From a virus, in IMG/VR virus record IMGVR_UViG_3300032316_000337, positions 1 to 22,697 of that record: 22,697 nt of DNA; one strand, written 5' to 3'. The first letter of the stretch is position 1. Each line of letters starts with the position of its first letter. Below are positions 6,673-16,366 of this stretch, one piece after another. The notes beneath the pieces were generated by a model that was given only the letters and a program-made list of their open reading frames with translations, searched no databases and was not told the DNA's origin. Made by a program: the position numbers and the translations under genes.

Positions 6673-7034
6673 TGATTGAAGAACTTATCAGCCGCGTGTT
6701 CTACGCACGGAATGTTGCACACTTTGAACATTGGCGCGCCAAGGGCGAAGGCAGCTACGCCAAGCACAAGGCGCTGGGCCACTTTTACGACGACGTCATA
6801 GACGCCATCGACAGGCTCGTAGAGGCGTACCAAGGCGCGTTCAGCCTCATCGGCAACATACCAGCCCCGAAAGTCACTGAGCGTGACGTGCTGAAGCTCC
6901 TAGAGGCTGACGCGGACTGGATCGAGCAGAACCACGAGGCCGTCTGCAAGGGCAACCGCGCCGTGGCCAACCTCGTGGACGGTGTCACAGAAGTGTATCT
7001 ATCAACCATCTATAAGCTACGGAACTTGAAATGA
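6672..7034 (+). CDS. DUF5856 family, Dps/mini-ferritin-like protein
   Basis: The 120-residue, largely helical protein (MIEELISRVFYARNVAHFEH start) fits DUF5856 as I recall it. Its first helices align without gaps to the Dps ferroxidase region. H20-W21, K24-G25, H32, D47 and E51 have the same spacing as E. coli Dps H51-W52, R55-G56, H63, D78 and E82 (steps of 12, 15 and 4). The position of Dps D67 is G36 here, with H37 beside it. The C-terminal half (ADWIEQNHEAVCKGNRAVAN, then EVYLSTIYKLRNL) resembles the last Dps helices. A metal-binding four-helix bundle is therefore likely; whether it oxidises iron, stores it or serves in the virion is unknown. It lies between a fibre gene and the lysis cassette, coupled to both. 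Confidence 0.7.
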   Translation: MIEELISRVFYARNVAHFEHWRAKGEGSYAKHKALGHFYDDVIDAIDRLVEAYQGAFSLIGNIPAPKVTERDVLKLLEADADWIEQNHEAVCKGNRAVANLVDGVTEVYLSTIYKLRNLK

Positions 7035-7195
7035 ACGATGATGACTTAAATGTTCGCCTGTCTACACATGAAGCCGTATGTGCCGAACGGTGGCGTGAAA
7101 CTATCATGCGTATTAAACGCCTCGAAAATACCAGCTTAGGCGTGGCTGGGGCAATCATTATGCTGCTTATCGGCATAATTATGAAGATGAACTGA
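7031..7195 (+). CDS. Small membrane protein, XhlA/holin-like (54 aa)
   Basis: The ATG overlaps the preceding stop (ATGA), and the stop is one base before the endolysin ATG. The N-terminal half is charged and helical (ERWRETIMRIKRLE), followed by one membrane segment, LGVAGAIIMLLIGIIM (about 36-51), and the short tail KMN. A short coiled-coil plus a C-terminal membrane span is the layout of XhlA-type proteins, which act with holins in lysis. Its place directly before an endolysin supports this. It could instead be a pinholin- or antiholin-like regulator. Confidence 0.7.
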   Translation: MNDDDLNVRLSTHEAVCAERWRETIMRIKRLENTSLGVAGAIIMLLIGIIMKMN

Positions 7196-8109: not shown

Positions 8110-9291
8110 ATGCCAGCCATCTTAGCGATAGACCAAGAGTTGTACAAATATTGTACGCCTCGCCAAAAGGAAATCCTCGAGGCCATAGAGCGTCTTGGAA
8201 GTGCCAAGGCTGCGTCCATTGAATTGGGTATTAACATGGGCGGCGCAAGTGACGCCTACATTGCTGTTAAAAAGAAGGCGGCGCTGTACGGCTACGCGCC
8301 AGAGCATGACTTTACACGGCCCGTGCCCGACGGCTTTATCGCCAAGGGCGTATCGACCTACTACGACAAGGAGGGCAAGCCCACCGGCCAGTGGGTCAAG
8401 GCGTCTGCCGACGTGGCTCGGCAGCAAGAGATGTTCGCAGCCGCCGTGAACGCGATGGCGAACACGTTGCCGCGCCTCGATCCAATCATCGCGCCAGAGC
8501 AGTTCAACGCCGACCTGCTGACGATGTACACGCTAACCGACGCGCACATCGGCATGCTCGCATGGCACCGCGAGAACATGCAGGCCGACTGGGACTTGCA
8601 GATAGCCGAGGCGGTCATCGTCGGCTGCTTCGAGCAGATCATCAAATCCTCGCCAGACAGCGAGACGGCCATCCTGAACCAGCTCGGCGACTTGCTGCAC
8701 TACGACGGCCTGTCGGCCGTCACACCGACCAGCGGGCACGTCCTCGACGCCGACGGCCGCTTCACCAAGATGGTCGAAGTCGCCGTGCGTGTGCTGCGCC
8801 GCATCATCAATATGCTACTGGCCAAGCACAAAAACGTCCACGTCATCCTCGCCGAAGGCAACCACGACATGGCCTCGTCCGTCTGGCTGCGCACGATGTT
8901 CAAGGCGCTGTACGAGAACGAGCCGCGCATCACCGTCGATGACAGCGCGCTGCCGTACTACGCCTATGAATTTGGCGACGTCATGTTGACCTTTCACCAC
9001 AGCCACTTGAAGAAGTTCGGCGCGATGCGCGAAATCATCCCCGCCATGTTCTCCGAGATATGGGGCCGCACGAAGAAACGCTACTGCCACACAGGGAACT
9101 ACCACCACACCAAAGAGGAGGAACATGCAGGGATGAAGGTCTTCCAGCACCCCACACTCGCCGCACGGGACGCATACGCCTCTCGCGGCGCGTGGTTCTC
9201 GGACAGGGAGGTGTGCTCGATCACGTACCATAAAAAGTTCGGGCAGGGGATGCGTGTGTACGCTTGCCCTGAAATGCTGGATGCCGTATGA
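8110..9291 (+). CDS. Metallophosphoesterase with N-terminal helix-turn-helix
   Basis: The N-terminal 55 residues (TPRQKEILEAIERLGSAKAA, then AYIAVKKKAALYGYAPEH) form a helix-turn-helix-like DNA-binding region, followed by a GVSTYYDKEGKPTGQWVKAS linker. The catalytic part has the metallophosphoesterase motifs in order: D144-A-H146 (TLTDAHIGM), G193-D194 (NQLGDLLHYDG), G250-N-H-D253 (AEGNHDMAS), a His cluster at 296-299 (TFHHSHL) and GNYHH at 329-333. This family contains phosphodiesterases and nucleases of the SbcD/Mre11 type; a DNA or nucleotide substrate is plausible given the HTH. It sits between the lysis and neck genes and is not an obvious virion protein. The start abuts the Rz1 stop. 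Confidence 0.85.
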   Translation: MPAILAIDQELYKYCTPRQKEILEAIERLGSAKAASIELGINMGGASDAYIAVKKKAALYGYAPEHDFTRPVPDGFIAKGVSTYYDKEGKPTGQWVKASADVARQQEMFAAAVNAMANTLPRLDPIIAPEQFNADLLTMYTLTDAHIGMLAWHRENMQADWDLQIAEAVIVGCFEQIIKSSPDSETAILNQLGDLLHYDGLSAVTPTSGHVLDADGRFTKMVEVAVRVLRRIINMLLAKHKNVHVILAEGNHDMASSVWLRTMFKALYENEPRITVDDSALPYYAYEFGDVMLTFHHSHLKKFGAMREIIPAMFSEIWGRTKKRYCHTGNYHHTKEEEHAGMKVFQHPTLAARDAYASRGAWFSDREVCSITYHKKFGQGMRVYACPEMLDAV

Positions 9292-9345: not shown

Positions 9346-9999
9346 ATGGCCACTGCGATGACATTCACGACGTTACAGCAAGACGTGCAGCGCTATCTTG
9401 AGCGCGGCAACACCCTTGCGTCCGACCCCATTGTCTTCGAGCAAATCCCGCGCCTAATCAACCTCGCCGAACGCCGCATCGCCCGCGAGCTTAAAGTTGA
9501 GGGCTTCATCAACGTCGTGACCGGCACGCTCTCTCCGGGCCAGTCCGTCTACCCCAAGCCCGACCGCTGGCGCGACACGGTGTCGATCAACATCGGCACA
9601 GGCGCGACTTTTAATGACCGCAAAATCATATTCTCCCGCGTGTATGAATATCTGCGCTCCTACTGGCCAAACGCCTTGGAGACGGACACGCCGCTGTTCT
9701 ACAGCGACTATGACTACAGTCACTGGCTGTTCGCGCCGACGCCGGACGCCGCATATCCATTTGAAATCCTGTATTACGAGTTGCCGCCATTGCTTGACGA
9801 TAGCGTGCAGACCAACTGGATTACCGAATACGCCCCGCAGCTTCTGCTTTACGGCACGCTGGTTGAGGCAACGCCGTTCCTGAAGAACGACGAACGCATC
9901 CCAGTTTGGCAGAGCATGTACGACCGCGCGGCGGCAATGTTGAACGGCGAAGATCTCGCCAAAATCTTAGACCGATCCGCCGTGCGCAAGGAGGCATAA
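9346..9999 (+). CDS. Head-tail adaptor, SU10-adaptor-like
   Basis: The 217-residue protein starts MATAMTFTTLQQDVQRYLER and continues with IPRLINLAERRIARELKVEG and SPGQSVYPKPDRWRD. The middle is beta-rich (IIFSRVYEYLRSYWP, then FAPTPDAAYPFEILYYELPP) and the end helical (EYAPQLLLYGTLVEATPFLK, then WQSMYDRAAAML). The LINLAERRIAREL signature and size fit the SU10-like adaptor family that sits between portal and nozzle in podoviruses. The gp10-like nozzle at 14666 in the same window supports a neck role. Its stop overlaps the next start (TAATG). Confidence 0.7.
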   Translation: MATAMTFTTLQQDVQRYLERGNTLASDPIVFEQIPRLINLAERRIARELKVEGFINVVTGTLSPGQSVYPKPDRWRDTVSINIGTGATFNDRKIIFSRVYEYLRSYWPNALETDTPLFYSDYDYSHWLFAPTPDAAYPFEILYYELPPLLDDSVQTNWITEYAPQLLLYGTLVEATPFLKNDERIPVWQSMYDRAAAMLNGEDLAKILDRSAVRKEA

Positions 10000-12794
10000 T
10001 GTCCACGTCATTTACACAGGTTTTCGGTGGTACGACAATCTACCCCTCGGACGTATCGTACCTCCCCCTCGCGCTGACCAGCGACATATCCCTTGAGTGG
10101 CCGCTTGAGGCCACCACCGGCAATAACGTCGTCGCGCGCATCATCGACGTCACACCGACAGGGCCATTCACCATAACCTTGCCCGACGCGCTGTCGGTTG
10201 GCGTCGGACAGACGATCCTGTTCAACAACCTCGGCCCCAACACAATCACCGTTGACAATGCCGCCGGCAACGCAATCCTGAGCATCGGCGCGGGCGAACA
10301 GTGGCAGTGCTACCTCATCAACAACACCACCGTCGGCGGTGTCTGGCGCACGTTCCGCTACGGCGCTGCCGTAGCGCAGGCTCAGGCCGCCGCACTGGCG
10401 GGCGCGGGTCTAATCGCAGACGGATCGGAGCTTGCGCAGAATTACGAGGTCATCGACTTTTCCATCACGCCGTACAGCTTGACTGCCCCTGACCGCGCGA
10501 GGGTCTTCGTCTGGGCCGGCGGCCTCGGCACGCTCAACTTGCCGACCGCTGTCGCCGCCGGCGACGGTTGGTTTGTGCAAGTCCGCAACGGCGGGCAGGG
10601 CGACCTGACCGTCGACCCGTCCGGCTCCGAGCTTATCAACGCGGCAGCCACGCTGCTCTTGCAGCCGGGCGACAGCGCCGTCATTGTAAGCGACGGCGTC
10701 CAGTGGTACACCATCGGCCTCGGTCAGCAGGCGGTCTTCGCGTTCGACTACACGACCATTGCCGTCACTGGCGGTACGTACACACTGAGTGGGTCAGAAC
10801 TTAATCGGATTGCGTATAGGTTCAACGGCGCGCTGACGTCCAACGTCACCGTCGTTGTCCCCGCCACGGTGCAGCAATACTGGGTAAACAACGCCACGAC
10901 GGGCGCGTTTACGTTGGGCCTTCAGGCCTCGGGTAGCGCGACCACCACTCTGGTCACTCAAGGCGCGACGGCCATCCTGTATTCCGACGGCACGAACATC
11001 ATCTCGGCCACCACCTCGGCGGCCTTTGCGGGTACAGTCCCCATTTCCCAAGGCGGCACAGGCGCAGTCAACGCGCCCTCGGCGCTGACCAACCTCGGCG
11101 GCACGGGTATCGGCACGTCGGTCTTCACGGCAGCCACGACGGCTGCGGCGCGCTCCGCCATCGCGGCGGCGGCCTCTGGCGCTAACAGCGACATCACGTC
11201 ACTGACGGGCCTCACGACGCCACTGAGCGTCGCGCAAGGCGGCACCAACGCCATAACGGCTGGAGCTGCGCGCACAAGCCTCGGCGCGGCGGCAAGCGGC
11301 TCAAACGCAGACATCACGGCTTTGACTAACGCGGCAGGCATTCAGATCGGCGCGCCTACGCTTGGCGCGCAAGGTGTGGGCACCATTAACGCCACGGGCC
11401 TGTTCATCAACGGCGTGGGCGTCGGCACGGGTTCAGGCTCGGTGACCAGCGTCGCGGCGACCGTCCCGTCGTTCCTGTCCGTGACCGGTTCGCCAATCAC
11501 GACGTCGGGCACGTTGGCAATCTCGCTGTCGGGCACCGCGCTCCCTGTCGCCAACGGCGGCACGGGCCAGACCACGTACACCGACGGGCAGTTGCTTATT
11601 GGCAACACCACGGGCAACACGCTTACGAAGGCGACGTTGACGGCTGGGTCGGGCATCAGCATCACGAACGGCGCGGGTGGCATCACCATCGCGTCTACTG
11701 CCGGTAGTGGCACTGTCACCTCGGTCTCCGGCTCAGGCGGCACCACGGGCCTTACCTTAACTGGCGGTCCGATTACAACCAGCGGCACTTTGACCCTCGG
11801 CGGGACGCTCGCCGTTGTTAATGGCGGCACTGGCGCGACCAGTGTCTCTGGCGCTCGGCTCAACCTCGGTGCGGCTGGCTCTGGCGCTAACTCCGACATC
11901 ACGTCGCTCACCGGCCTGCTCACGGCACTTAGTATCGCACAGGGCGGCACAGGCGCGACTGACGCGACCACCGCTCGGACTAATCTCGGCGCGGGTACGG
12001 TCACTTCAGTTGCCGGCACTGGCACTGTAAGCGGCTTGAGCTTGAGCGGTACTGTTACCACTTCGGGGTCTCTGACGCTTGGCGGCACGCTCGCCGTCAC
12101 GGCGTCTAACTTTGCGTCACAAACGGCCAACACGTTCTTGGCTGCGCCGAATGGCACGGCTGGCGTTCCGACATTCCGCGCTATTGTCGCGGCGGACGTT
12201 CCGACCCTTAACCAGAACACGACTGGGACGGCATTGAACGTCACCGGCACAGTCGCCGTGGCCAACGGCGGCACAGGCGCAACGACTTCAGGCGGGGCGC
12301 TCACCAACCTCGGCGCTTACGCGGCCAGCAACCCATCTGGCTTTACCTCGAACACCGGCACTGTCACATCTGTCGGTGGCACTGGCTCTGCCAACGGCCT
12401 CAGTCTTTCAGGCACGGTCACAACGTCGGGCAACTTAACGCTTGGCGGTTCGGTTACATCCGTCGCATCTGGTGCTACCATCGACAGCATCGTTATTGGA
12501 TACCGGAACATTCCCCGTTCTACGACAACTACCACCGCTGTGGTAGGTGATGTCGGCAAGTGCATTGCGGTTACTGCGGGCATAACAATTCCTAACAGCA
12601 CGTTTGCTGCGGGTGATGCGGTTTCAATATACAACGACAGTGCTGCTGCCATTACGATTACAGCAGGGGTCACAACGCTCCGCCTCGCAGGAACCGCCAC
12701 CACAGGCAACCGCACACTGGCTGCGCGGGGTATGGCAACGGTCTGGTTCAACAGCGCGACAGAGGCAGTTATCTCTGGCGCGGGAGTTACATAA
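9999..12794 (+). CDS. Long tail fibre with GGTG repeats
   Basis: I start at the ATG at 9999, which overlaps the adaptor stop; this gives 931 residues. Residues 1-130 form an N-terminal attachment region (FTQVFGGTTIYPSDVSYLPL), and then come beta-rich units with a shared plan (PFTITLPDA, GQTILFNNLGPNTITVDNA; later GLGTLNLPTAVAAGD and NVTVVVPATVQQYWVNNATT). From about 347 to 817 the shaft consists of six GGTG/GGTN units of the type PISQGGTGA...AL.NLG and four GTVTSV..G...SG..TTSG.LTLGG units. The last 100 residues (GYRNIPRSTTTT, then GKCIAVTAGITIPNSTFAAG) form a recurrent fibre C-terminal domain. Codon choice shifts from GGC towards GGT near 12470. It is a trimeric receptor-seeking fibre, followed directly by a tip adhesin. 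Confidence 0.85.
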   Translation: MSTSFTQVFGGTTIYPSDVSYLPLALTSDISLEWPLEATTGNNVVARIIDVTPTGPFTITLPDALSVGVGQTILFNNLGPNTITVDNAAGNAILSIGAGEQWQCYLINNTTVGGVWRTFRYGAAVAQAQAAALAGAGLIADGSELAQNYEVIDFSITPYSLTAPDRARVFVWAGGLGTLNLPTAVAAGDGWFVQVRNGGQGDLTVDPSGSELINAAATLLLQPGDSAVIVSDGVQWYTIGLGQQAVFAFDYTTIAVTGGTYTLSGSELNRIAYRFNGALTSNVTVVVPATVQQYWVNNATTGAFTLGLQASGSATTTLVTQGATAILYSDGTNIISATTSAAFAGTVPISQGGTGAVNAPSALTNLGGTGIGTSVFTAATTAAARSAIAAAASGANSDITSLTGLTTPLSVAQGGTNAITAGAARTSLGAAASGSNADITALTNAAGIQIGAPTLGAQGVGTINATGLFINGVGVGTGSGSVTSVAATVPSFLSVTGSPITTSGTLAISLSGTALPVANGGTGQTTYTDGQLLIGNTTGNTLTKATLTAGSGISITNGAGGITIASTAGSGTVTSVSGSGGTTGLTLTGGPITTSGTLTLGGTLAVVNGGTGATSVSGARLNLGAAGSGANSDITSLTGLLTALSIAQGGTGATDATTARTNLGAGTVTSVAGTGTVSGLSLSGTVTTSGSLTLGGTLAVTASNFASQTANTFLAAPNGTAGVPTFRAIVAADVPTLNQNTTGTALNVTGTVAVANGGTGATTSGGALTNLGAYAASNPSGFTSNTGTVTSVGGTGSANGLSLSGTVTTSGNLTLGGSVTSVASGATIDSIVIGYRNIPRSTTTTTAVVGDVGKCIAVTAGITIPNSTFAAGDAVSIYNDSAAAITITAGVTTLRLAGTATTGNRTLAARGMATVWFNSATEAVISGAGVT
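11040..12450 (+). repeat. Coding repeats of the fibre shaft
   Basis: Two interleaved degenerate repeat types are visible in translation: six GGTG/GGTN collar units (first at about 11040, last at about 12260) and four GTVTSV...TTSG.L units (the last ends near 12450). DNA identity between units is partial, with shared blocks such as GGCGGCACAGGCGC. They are protein-level shaft repeats and not a CRISPR array. Confidence 0.8.
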
Positions 12795-13487: not shown

Positions 13488-13799
13488 ATGTTAACATATC
13501 AAATGCAGTTTAACGCAAAAGTTGAGTCAATCAATCTGGAACAAAGGCAGTTAGTTGTTGAGTATTTCGATCCTCACGGGGGTAAAAGTATACGCGCTGC
13601 GCTAGGCTTTAATTTTGACGCAACAGCGGATGATTTACGGCAGCTTGTTGTGGATGCCACTCCGCACACTCGTTTTCACGATAGGAATGAAGAGGTTAAA
13701 GCCATCCAAGAACGAAACATCGACCTTCAACAGTTAGAAGTTATTGTCGGTGAGGATATGGAGTACAACCTACCTACATTTAATAACGAAGTGATCTAA
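13488..13799 (+). CDS. Unknown 103-aa protein of the AT-rich cassette
   Basis: The start is set by a strong Shine-Dalgarno. The N-terminal half is beta-like (MLTYQMQFNAKVESINLEQR, then QLVVEYFDPHGGKSIRAALG), the second half mixed and acidic (DDLRQLVVDATPHTRFHDRN, then LQQLEVIVGEDMEYNLP). I recall similarly sized proteins with a MLTY..QF.A.VES start next to fibre genes in aquatic phages, which would suit a small fibre-associated or assembly protein, but I cannot name a family. GC is about 37% in a sampled line, far below the flanks. The stop overlaps the cupin start (TAATG). Confidence 0.65.
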   Translation: MLTYQMQFNAKVESINLEQRQLVVEYFDPHGGKSIRAALGFNFDATADDLRQLVVDATPHTRFHDRNEEVKAIQERNIDLQQLEVIVGEDMEYNLPTFNNEVI

Positions 13800-14077
13800 T
13801 GCTCAAAGATCGTAATATCACGTTTGGTGAGTTAAACACCACGATATACGACCTTGAATTTAAGGGTGATTGCTTGCCGGAACACAGGCATCAAATAGGC
13901 GAGACACACATTACAATATGCGCAAGAGGCGTGGTAGATATCGTAACGCCTGAGTGGACAAAAACCCTTACGGAAGGCAATATTATCGAGTTTTACCCGT
14001 TGCAGTCACATGCAGTTGTTGCCCTTACCGATAATTGCAGAATAGTAAACATACCGACTTCATATGCTAAACCATAA
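13799..14077 (+). CDS. Single-domain mini-cupin
   Basis: The 92-residue beta protein has both cupin motifs. Motif 1 is G23-x5-H29-x-H31-x3-E35 (GDCLPEHRHQIGETHITI) and motif 2 is G60...P67...H71...N79 (EGNIIEFYPLQSHAVVALTD). H29, H31, E35 and H71 would bind one metal ion. It is near the minimum size for a cupin barrel. Cupins range from sugar isomerases and epimerases to dioxygenases and regulatory sensors, so no reaction can be assigned. Its setting between a fibre-tip module and a methyltransferase suggests small-molecule or glycan work, or a stabilising role in the particle. It has no signal peptide. It overlaps the methyltransferase gene by 14 bases. Confidence 0.75.
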   Translation: MLKDRNITFGELNTTIYDLEFKGDCLPEHRHQIGETHITICARGVVDIVTPEWTKTLTEGNIIEFYPLQSHAVVALTDNCRIVNIPTSYAKP

Positions 14078-14666
14078 TGATTTCATACAAAAGTACACAA
14101 AGCTACAGTATCTTTCTTTTGTCCCAGAGATAAGATTATTTACTAGCAAAGAGAAAACCATGCACGACATGCTAAAACAAGAGTTAGGTAATAATACTGC
14201 AAGGCCCTATTGGACGCAATCTTGGGCTGGAGGGTTAGCGCTGTCTCGATATGTTATAGATAATCCTGATACTGTAAAGGATAAGCATGTTATTGATTTT
14301 TGTTCTGGGTCCGGTATTGTAGGTATTGCGGCAGCTATGTCAGGCGCTGCAAGAGTAACGTGCGTTGATACTGATACTATTGCTCTTAGTTCTTCCTTGC
14401 TTAATGCTAAAGCTAACAAAGCTAACATTGATGTTTCGGAAACAGTTATTGAGGGGGATATATTACTAGCGGGTGACCCAGAAGTTAAAGCCGATGTCTT
14501 TAATATAATAAAAAACACAGGTTCTTATATTGGGTGTCCTACCAGAAACAAAAGCTACTTAGATGAATTTGATACGGTAACTTCATACGTTATAGACACC
14601 GAGGAGTTCCAAAATAGTATTACATACATTCTAAGCAGCGCGCATTTACGCCCACGAGGTACCTAA
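14064..14666 (+). CDS. SAM-dependent methyltransferase, ETFB lysine methyltransferase-like, with reduced core
   Basis: The 200-residue protein starts at the ATG at 14064 inside the cupin gene. PYWTQSWAGGLALSRYVIDN (48-67) followed by HVIDFCSGSGIVGIAAAMSG (75-94) is the pre-motif and motif I of the METTL20/ETFB-KMT and Nnt1-like group, with D78 and G82/G84 for SAM and D102 (VDTD) in motif II. SYIGCPTRNKSYL (154-166) matches the family's late IGDPGRAYL strand. Between ADVF (143-146) and that strand I see only seven residues; relatives have a longer stretch there with a D/GD..Y motif that shapes the target site. The enzyme may be altered or inactive. GC is about 38%. Its stop overlaps the nozzle start (TAATG). 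Confidence 0.75.
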   Translation: MLNHNDFIQKYTKLQYLSFVPEIRLFTSKEKTMHDMLKQELGNNTARPYWTQSWAGGLALSRYVIDNPDTVKDKHVIDFCSGSGIVGIAAAMSGAARVTCVDTDTIALSSSLLNAKANKANIDVSETVIEGDILLAGDPEVKADVFNIIKNTGSYIGCPTRNKSYLDEFDTVTSYVIDTEEFQNSITYILSSAHLRPRGT

Positions 14667-16366
14667 TGGCCGAGAACATTGTCCAAATCAAGTCGCTCCC
14701 CGGCATTAAGCGGGACGGCACCAAGTTCGAGGGCGACCAGTACGTTGACGGGCAGTGGGTTCGTTTTCAGCGCGGGCTGCCGCGTAAGATGGGCGGCTAC
14801 CGTTCGATAAACAAGTTCCTTCGCGGCTTGCCGCGCGCGCTCACCGAATATACACAGGATCTGCTGACGTACATCCACGCCGGATCGTCAGACCGCCTCG
14901 AGCGTTTCTTCATCGACGGCACGTACAACACCAGCATCATCACAGATCGCACACCCTTCGCCGGCTTCACAGTAGACGACGCAAACATGTGGCAGTTCGC
15001 CACGGCGTACGACACGAACAACGGCAACCAGATTGTCGCGCAAGTCGCGCCGAACCTCAACTGCATCTGCAACAGTGAGGGCGGCGCGGTATTCGTCGGC
15101 GACCTCCTCGGCACGACGGCATTGACACAAGTCACCGCAGTGCCGGCTAACTTCAGCGCCACTGGCGGCGTCGTCACGCTGCCACCCTACACGTTCGCCT
15201 TCGGCAATGACGGCTACGCGGCGTGGTCCGTGCCGAACAACCCGTCGGACTTCACGGGATCTGGCGCGGGTAATGCGTACATTACGGGGCAAAAGATCGT
15301 CAAGGCGATGCCACTGCGCGGCGGGCCGGGCAACAGTCCCTCGGGCCTGTTCTGGTCGGCAGACAGCCTCATTCGCGGCACGTACGTCGGTGGCACTGCG
15401 GTGTTTCAGTTCGACACAATCAGCGCGCAGTCGTCGATCCTGTCGTCCAACAGCGTCATCGAGTATGACGGCATCTTCTACTGGATTGGCACCGACCGCT
15501 TTCTGACGTTTAATGGCGTCGTGCGCGAGGTCGAGAACAACCTCAATCTGAACTTTTTCTTCGACAACCTGAACTATGCGCAGCGCCAGAAGGTGTTCGC
15601 GATGAAGGTGCCGCGCTTCGGCGAGATATGGTGGTGCTTCCCGTTCGGCGACAGCATCGAGCCGAACCACGCCGTCTGTTACAACGTGCGCGAAAACACG
15701 TGGTACGACACCGCACTACCCAACGGCGGACGCGGCGCGGGCATCTTCCCTGCCGTGTTCCAAAAGCCGCTGATGTCTGGCGTGCTTCCTGACTTCCTGC
15801 CTACGGACACTCGCGTCACCGAGCAATACTACGGCGACCAAGACGCTACGCCGTCGCTCGCATTGGACTTCATCACACCCCTGTACGTGGCACATGACTG
15901 GCTCAATGCTGGCACCCGCATCACAGAAGACGAAAACGTCCGCATCACCGAAGATAGCGGAGATCCGCAATATAAGTTCTGGGTTCACGAGGTCGGCACG
16001 GACGAGATTGACGGCCTGACGCTCAACCCGATACAGTCGTACTTCGAGACGGCCGACCTGTGCCTGCCAGTCACGGCGCAGAAAAACAAGGCCCTTCAGG
16101 TGTTGATGCTTGAGCCAGACTTCGTGCAGAGTGGCGACATGGTGGTGCAAGTCATGGGTCGCGCCAACGCTCGCGCGCCCGAAGTTAACGGCATTCCTAT
16201 GACATTTGTTGAGAACCCGCAGACGCCGCAAGAGCAGGTCGTCTTCTTGAAGACGCAGCGCCGCGAACTGCGCTTTCGTTTCGAAAGCAACACCCTCGGC
16301 GGAAATTATCAGATGGGCTTGGTCCTTGCGCACTTGCAAGAGGGCGATGGCACAACTTTAGGATGA
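14666..16366 (+). CDS. Packaged-DNA stabilisation/nozzle protein, P22 gp10-like
   Basis: The 566-residue protein begins IVQIKSLPGIKRDGTKFEGD, then YVDGQWVRFQRGLPRKMGGY, the signature of the P22 gp10 (Phage_stabilise) group. The body consists of repeated beta blades, for example VIEYDGIFYWIGTDRFLTFN, then EIWWCFPFGDS and HAVCYNVRENTWYDTALPNG, in keeping with the beta-propeller of gp10 and podovirus nozzle proteins. C-terminal strands (VVFLKTQRRELRFRFESNTL) end the protein. It closes the portal channel after packaging and connects to the tail. It returns sharply to high GC (about 62%) at its first codons, marking the edge of the AT-rich cassette. It overlaps the next gene at ATGA. Confidence 0.75.
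   Translation: MAENIVQIKSLPGIKRDGTKFEGDQYVDGQWVRFQRGLPRKMGGYRSINKFLRGLPRALTEYTQDLLTYIHAGSSDRLERFFIDGTYNTSIITDRTPFAGFTVDDANMWQFATAYDTNNGNQIVAQVAPNLNCICNSEGGAVFVGDLLGTTALTQVTAVPANFSATGGVVTLPPYTFAFGNDGYAAWSVPNNPSDFTGSGAGNAYITGQKIVKAMPLRGGPGNSPSGLFWSADSLIRGTYVGGTAVFQFDTISAQSSILSSNSVIEYDGIFYWIGTDRFLTFNGVVREVENNLNLNFFFDNLNYAQRQKVFAMKVPRFGEIWWCFPFGDSIEPNHAVCYNVRENTWYDTALPNGGRGAGIFPAVFQKPLMSGVLPDFLPTDTRVTEQYYGDQDATPSLALDFITPLYVAHDWLNAGTRITEDENVRITEDSGDPQYKFWVHEVGTDEIDGLTLNPIQSYFETADLCLPVTAQKNKALQVLMLEPDFVQSGDMVVQVMGRANARAPEVNGIPMTFVENPQTPQEQVVFLKTQRRELRFRFESNTLGGNYQMGLVLAHLQEGDGTTLG

Follow-up and report, generated by a model that had tools for sequence, protein, structure and literature searches.

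In Alteromonas phages A5, V22 and P24, a tail fibre and its cognate chaperone form a shared host-recognition module (PMC10579305). Such fibre and chaperone modules are the nearest known system to the arrangement described here, which lies in a 22,697-nucleotide stretch of viral DNA (the window; IMG/VR virus record IMGVR_UViG_3300032316_000337, positions 1 to 22,697). In both, a receptor-binding fibre and a small downstream helper are exchanged jointly between phage families. The module seen in the window, however, adds a small four-histidine (4-His) cupin, joined in six lineages by a methyltransferase; its adhesin and helper types also differ, and the phages that carry the cupin module are uncultured aquatic ones. 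Adhesin module exchange as such is already known; the added enzyme-like genes are the new part. A search of the open-licence literature found no cupin family accompanying tail tips, no cupin-tail fibre module, cupin-methyltransferase pair, P-x-V-I tail or cysteine link.

Each part of the module has its own described counterparts. T-even gp38-type adhesins, for example those of S16 and PP01, contain polyglycine helices. The window adhesin resembles them by composition, with a Gly-rich tip, variable loops between glycine tracts and a separate gene ending the fibre operon, whereas its best Pfam match is Gly_rich_2, below the cut-off, and no gp38 sequence match was seen. To our knowledge, neither a cupin nor a methyltransferase has been described beside gp38. 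The phage cupin shares a small single-domain fold and metal-site histidines with TM1459, an Mn 4-His cupin, and with the uronate-acting KdgF (TMq mostly 0.7-0.82, VIA Z 11.7-13.3; KdgF E 5e-5 by profile), but identity is 14-22% and the H-x-H-x5-H ligand spacing is peculiar to the phage family; we know of no tie of TM1459 or KdgF to phage tails. The methyltransferase has motif I and the surrounding core in common with PrmA and METTL20-METTL21-type enzymes, while its post-II motif is GDP[EA] or SSL[FS]Y in phages, not D-x-x-Y, and its N-terminal FVPE[IM]+L signature is phage-specific.

A four-gene unit in the fibre-nozzle slot

The original prediction described an AT-rich three-gene cassette at 13488-14666, and this cassette is real, with coordinates and overlapping frames as claimed (Table 1). 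P0005 and the cupin gene overlap by 1 nt, the cupin and methyltransferase genes by 14 nt, and the methyltransferase and nozzle genes by 1 nt at a TAATG joint; an AGAGGAG is located 8 nt ahead of the P0005 ATG. The GC of 13488-14666 is 0.41, against a mean of 0.585 (SD 0.038, minimum 0.50) for 379 windows of equal length elsewhere in a phage of about 58% GC. By gene, GC is 0.42 for P0005, 0.42 for the cupin and 0.39 for the methyltransferase, against 0.59 for the nozzle gene; the low GC that had been reported thus stands, at 0.39-0.42 instead of 35-40%. GC3 follows the same course, with 0.41, 0.43 and 0.32 for the three genes and 0.78 for the nozzle gene. The proposed check by windowed GC and codon usage therefore found a step, and the step is sharp at the right edge, exactly at 14666, confirming by both GC and GC3 the abrupt change that had been placed at the TAATG.

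Table 1. Genes of the fibre-nozzle region of the window
Feature	Position	Strand	Remarks
Tail fibre gene	9999..12794	+	GC3 0.73; native podovirus-type, upstream of imported unit; neighbour relation in nozzle relatives
Gly-rich tip adhesin (P0003), 226 aa	12794..13474	+	GC3 0.42; looks chimeric
P0005, 103 aa	13488..13799	+	Small protein in tail-fibre assembly protein position; C-terminus NEVI
Small 4-His cupin (P0001), 92 aa	13799..14077	+	H29, H31, H37, H71 invariant; model pLDDT 93.9
Class I SAM methyltransferase (P0002), 200 aa	14064..14666	+	PrmA/METTL-like; post-II GDPE replaces DxxY
Nozzle/virion structural protein (phrog_3287)	14666..16366	+	GC3 0.78; right border of exchange slot

The left edge, by contrast, falls within or at the border of the adhesin gene and not at 13488. 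The GC3 of the adhesin gene is also low, although glycine codons prop up its overall GC to 0.58, and the imported unit is therefore the adhesin plus the trio. We dropped the picture of a cassette placed between the nozzle gene and an unrelated adhesin, since the adhesin is a member of the unit. The N-terminal ~40 residues of the adhesin resemble the tips of the podovirus relatives L066 and L046, and the remainder has 58% identity to the adhesin of one locus, L092, and 47% to that of another, L100, each of which comes ahead of the same trio. The adhesin gene thus looks chimeric from its sequence, and a recombination joint inside it, by which the tip domain would have been swapped together with its followers, explains both composition and homology. 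An assembly chimera is unlikely because a second contig (3300037189_002042) is 100% identical to the window over 12,838 bases. At the other end of the unit, the methyltransferase has a C-terminal extension (window 14634-14666, about SSAHLRPRGT) that is missing in L092 and L100 and GC-richer than the remaining gene, possibly a remnant of an earlier gene in the slot.

Relatives of the window nozzle protein were found in 80 loci at 67-100% identity, and in Caulobacter phages RW, GB2A, RLK and KcrB at 53%. Among these relatives the stretch between fibre and nozzle genes is tightly packed and highly variable, holds 0-3 small genes of differing kinds and often closes with the same TAATG or an ATGA joint. 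The trio was absent from the 79 other nozzle relatives, whose slot holds 0-3 other genes, and within the window's own lineage it is carried by one viral population only (the window and contig 3300037189_002042). The trio has arrived recently in the window lineage, where it is seated in a regularly exchanged slot.

Outside this lineage, a scan with P0005 led to L092/L093, a phage of 41% GC, and a small P0005 alignment to six contigs (L098-L103) of a bog phage of 38% GC, in which a DnaB-like replicative helicase and a primase adjoin the module. Both lineages, represented by L092 and L100, have the order Gly-rich adhesin, P0005 homologue, cupin and methyltransferase at 34-74% identity to the window. 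Identities to L092 are 58, 64, 74 and 45%, and to L100 47, 47, 54 and 34%, for the four genes in that order; they drop in parallel over all four, as expected of a unit inherited or transferred whole. Scanning with a methyltransferase alignment recovered these loci and added L187. In three further lineages (L187, L134 and L119) an adhesin is followed by a different small protein, a cupin and a methyltransferase, and in every locus from the methyltransferase query the cupin lies directly upstream of the methyltransferase. Adhesin and helper genes are thus shared between otherwise unrelated phages, the window phage with its Caulobacter phage RW-like nozzle and the phages of L092 and L100, and the co-occurrence of all three genes with a receptor-binding tip is conserved as had been anticipated. 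Together with the step in GC and codon usage, this answers both refutations set out in the original prediction in its favour. The four-gene module itself is well supported, and an artefact of a single population is ruled out by the recurrence of its order in diverged lineages.

Two of the loci deserve separate mention. In L094 (positions 1-480), a P0005 homologue lies right behind the end of a Gly-rich adhesin with neither cupin nor methyltransferase adjoining; its C-terminus is NEEV where P0005 has NEVI, and glycosyltransferase-like genes follow on the other strand. L187 (IMGVR_UViG_3300037189_012887, 150 kb) carries its own adhesin-cupin-methyltransferase variant and was recovered from the metagenome that also yielded the window's twin; its phage may share hosts with the window phage.

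The cupin family and its small partner

An alignment-based scan of viral contigs gave 185 cupin relatives, from which 63 distinct sequences were examined, 62 of them aligned for residue invariance. H29, H31, H37 and H71 are invariant in 62 of 62, as are D24, G44, W53, G60, R81 and N84. In the usual motif 1, G(X)5HXH(X)3-4E(X)6G, the glutamate position is taken by H37, whereas H29, H31, H71 and both glycines are conserved, which makes the family a 4-His cupin variant. The complete signature of a metal site points to a metal-binding cupin, as originally proposed. With the PF07883 (Cupin_2) profile, 53 of 60 relatives match (best 9.9e-7), the window cupin alone falling below the cut-off (0.088). 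Its model, built on an alignment of 58 sequences, predicts a jelly roll of nine strands. The best PDB matches of the model are cupins (Foldseek E 5e-7), small metal-binding ones such as TM1459 (Mn) and KdgF. The histidines that the thiol-acting 3-His iron site of cupin thiol dioxygenases (CDO/ADO type) would require are present, ADO is also among the VIA matches of the model (Z 12.9, rmsd 4.3), and one cupin relative matches PCO_ADO at 0.0075.

The family is rare among catalogued genomes. One of 50,697 phage records has the cupin, an uncultured podovirus from a spring in which it again lies behind a tail fibre, and 84,980 prokaryote genomes gave two relatives only, each in a phage-like region of a metagenome-assembled genome (one from Comamonadaceae, one from Acidithiobacillales). 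The statement that none of the three genes belongs to a known tail set consequently needs qualification: the cupin is a family of tail-fibre neighbourhoods, though an undescribed one. In MW202640.1 (L004:8720-9001), a 93-aa ORF ending GEAPAVI fits the conserved cupin neighbourhood, and the annotated 51-aa CDS at 8754-8909 is apparently in the wrong frame. The window encodes at 7031-7195 a small protein like the 56-60 aa protein directly behind the L004 cupin; the likeness consists of a short LNSHEAVC..R motif and a membrane end, in a lysis-type region in both phages.

Nearly every cupin is preceded by a small protein of 60-165 aa, itself behind a long fibre or a Gly-rich adhesin. These partners are of many unrelated kinds, some of which match tail-fibre assembly or tail-fibre PHROGs (phrog_105, 188, 1766). 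P0005 itself matched no PHROG and nothing significant in Pfam, and its model is poor (pLDDT 59.6), too low for a structure search; it is placed directly downstream of the adhesin, as tail fibre assembly/chaperone proteins are. For the partner of the L169 cupin, no relatives were found in named phages. What many partners share is their C-terminus, which in 44 of 62 follows the strict pattern P-[NDTA]-V-I, plus or minus one residue. Among 13,123 ORFs, a P-[NDTAVS]-V-I(G/A/E) terminus occurs in 46, and 43 of these precede a cupin; permuted tail patterns turn up 0-6 times and never at a cupin. The three exceptions, small fibre partners themselves (L089:4084-4311, L147:6112-6348 and L165:3434-3691), each have a cupin elsewhere in the locus, and their valine codon is GTA or GTC, not GTG.

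The conservation of this tail can be read at two levels. In some loci the partner stops 13 nt inside the cupin gene, such that the tail sequence codes for both proteins, and in others it stops at the cupin ATG, where GTG ATC is similar to a portion of a Shine-Dalgarno sequence. Because the tail overlaps the start codon or ribosome site of the cupin in most loci, part of its conservation is at the nucleotide level, and selection at that level certainly contributes. A pure ribosome-site effect is weakened by the two overlap phases and by the three genes with GTA or GTC codons that no cupin follows. A peptide-level link between the tail and the cupin is likely on these three cases, which come from related phages.

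The methyltransferase

The methyltransferase (METHYLTRANSFERASE) retains an intact motif I and an intact core around it, and its Pfam matches are to PrmA (3.5e-11) and Methyltransf_16 (9.7e-6). Its solved relatives by profile are PRMTs, PrmA (6.9e-12) and METTL21-type lysine methyltransferases (METTL21A 2.7e-9). The prediction of a protein-methyltransferase-like enzyme accordingly holds, as a class I enzyme nearest to protein methyltransferases. The post-II motif of such enzymes is D/E-x-x-F/Y. It stands at the end of beta-4 and has been implicated in substrate recognition (PMC10238732). In the window the corresponding residues are GDPEV, in L092 GDPAL and in L100 GDPEQ, while L187, L134 and L119 have SSL[FS]Y and the nearest bacterial relative has ADVLY. 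All phage copies therefore have an altered post-II motif, departing from that of Methyltransf_16/ETFB-KMT. Host ETFB, once suggested as a target, is unlikely, because the aromatic part of the DVLY post-II that the bacterial relative keeps is lost in the window, replaced by GDPEV. We read the altered motif as a substrate specificity of its own, though it may also reflect lost activity; we did not adopt a degraded methyltransferase as an explanation, GDP[EA] being common to three lineages and motif I intact.

The methyltransferase is absent beside 57 of the 63 distinct cupins, which makes its action optional. A profile of the six-lineage methyltransferases found no further ones in the loci examined, except for the bacterial relative in L007, and among named phages its relatives were limited to contigs that bear the label 'Acinetobacter phage MD-2021a' plus a single match, short and weak. 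One of the contigs so labelled (L007, CAKLQH020000021.1) carries folP, folD, glpK, glpD and tRNAs and looks like a bacterial chromosome segment.

Tip cysteines and possible roles of the module

All six methyltransferase-bearing adhesins contain cysteine, in most cases an MC, a CxC or a single C placed a little ahead of a glycine tract. The idea of a link to cysteine is post hoc, as it came from reading these six and was then tested on the other loci. Cysteine is present in 56 of 57 distinct cupin-linked fibre or adhesin ends, against 63 of 116 fibre/tip proteins of cupin-free nozzle relatives, and CC or CxC in 19 of 57 against 3 of 116 (Fisher 4e-8). Without the six discovery loci the counts are 50 of 51 for cysteine and 16 of 51 for CC/CxC (P = 4e-7), and at the family level the CC/CxC difference has P = 0.016 (30% identity) or 0.0014 (50%). 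Random placement of the same cysteines gave a mean of 1.9 clustered proteins and reached 19 in 0 of 2000 trials. CCC was seen in 7 cupin-linked and 0 cupin-free proteins, and the clusters are found in Gly-rich and in other fibre types. Other Gly-rich ORFs in the cupin loci have cysteine in 19 of 22 and clusters in 2 of 22 (P=0.045). Since the cupin-free control tips all belong to a single phage group and cysteine is also frequent in these other Gly-rich ORFs, cysteine richness could be general to these phages. When the adhesins of the window, L092 and L100 are compared, their most variable loop keeps one fixed position, the cysteine C170. The CCC motifs lie in exposed-looking tip loops upstream of the cupin in L110, L120, L133, L141, L145, L157 and L169, across Gly-rich and other types.

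The explanation that we prefer, held tentatively and with somewhat less than even confidence, is an exchangeable host-recognition module in which the cupin, sometimes with the methyltransferase, matures the adhesin tip. In this reading, adhesin, assembly-type protein, cupin and methyltransferase moved jointly into the fibre-tip slot of a podovirus that resembles Caulobacter phage RW, the donor being a distantly related phage with AT-richer DNA. P0005 would be a fibre-assembly protein that guides the cytoplasmic cupin to its fibre during assembly, possibly via the conserved C-terminal tail. We infer a tip-modifying chemistry with a tip cysteine as the prime candidate substrate: the cupin may act on the adhesin tip, most plausibly on one or more conserved loop cysteines, through oxidation or through metal loading or protection of thiols. 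The methyltransferase, which a minority of the phages carry, could methylate the same tip or the assembly protein as a second step. As a result, the receptor-binding surface would be matured or masked. Of the three targets named in the original prediction for such an accessory unit (the adhesin, a host protein or a small molecule), the adhesin is favored by linkage, host ETFB is disfavored, and a small molecule leaves the linkage to the adhesin unexplained.

The main rival to tip modification is a cap with a structural role alone, which we consider unlikely, if far from negligible. P0005 and the cupin would here act as a chaperone or cap in two parts, one that remains on the tip or shields it; the metal would do no more than stabilise the jelly roll, and the methyltransferase would be a loose passenger, as its absence from most cupin loci would allow. 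Some small partners do match fibre-assembly PHROGs, CENP-C cupins, which are not enzymes, head the list of structural matches, and the chaperones that Alteromonas phages share across families together with their fibres have been proposed as transient caps (PMC10579305). Four invariant histidines in a family otherwise 35-45% identical nevertheless exceed the needs of stability, and a cap leaves the link to tip cysteines unexplained.

It is distinctly improbable that the two proteins are metabolic or host-directed enzymes (for sugar or surface modification, superinfection exclusion or host protein methylation) riding in a recombination-hot-spot slot. The slot is highly variable in relatives, KdgF-type cupins of sugar metabolism are the closest solved sequences, and jumbo phages and cyanophages have cupins and methyltransferases in surface-decoration clusters (PMC7824862), but dozens of distinct loci have the cupin behind a pair of fibre and small protein instead of scattered among metabolic genes, and placement in a tail operon with overlapping frames suits assembly better. 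Accidental linkage in a selfish or neutral AT-rich insert without joint function, to which carriage by a single viral population of the window's lineage might point, is very improbable, given that at least three diverged lineages keep the gene order with comparable overlaps, that all four genes diverge in parallel and that the metal ligands are conserved.

Tail tips set phage host range and are usually viewed as plain folded proteins. If a conserved enzyme-like pair travels with the tip to mature it, as in our preferred reading, some phages would complete their receptor-binding surface by chemical means, and such finishing would escape both sequence-based host prediction and recombinant tips made without the partner genes. 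The broadest form of this idea, a widespread undescribed tail-maturation system in which a 4-His cupin, with or without a methyltransferase, is addressed via the P-x-V-I tail of interchangeable fibre-assembly proteins and chemically alters Cys clusters located in variable loops of receptor-binding tips, is doubtful; if true, phages would bind hosts with non-standard amino acids. As the cupin family is rare in named phages and common in aquatic viral contigs, the finding concerns a large uncultured share of phages.
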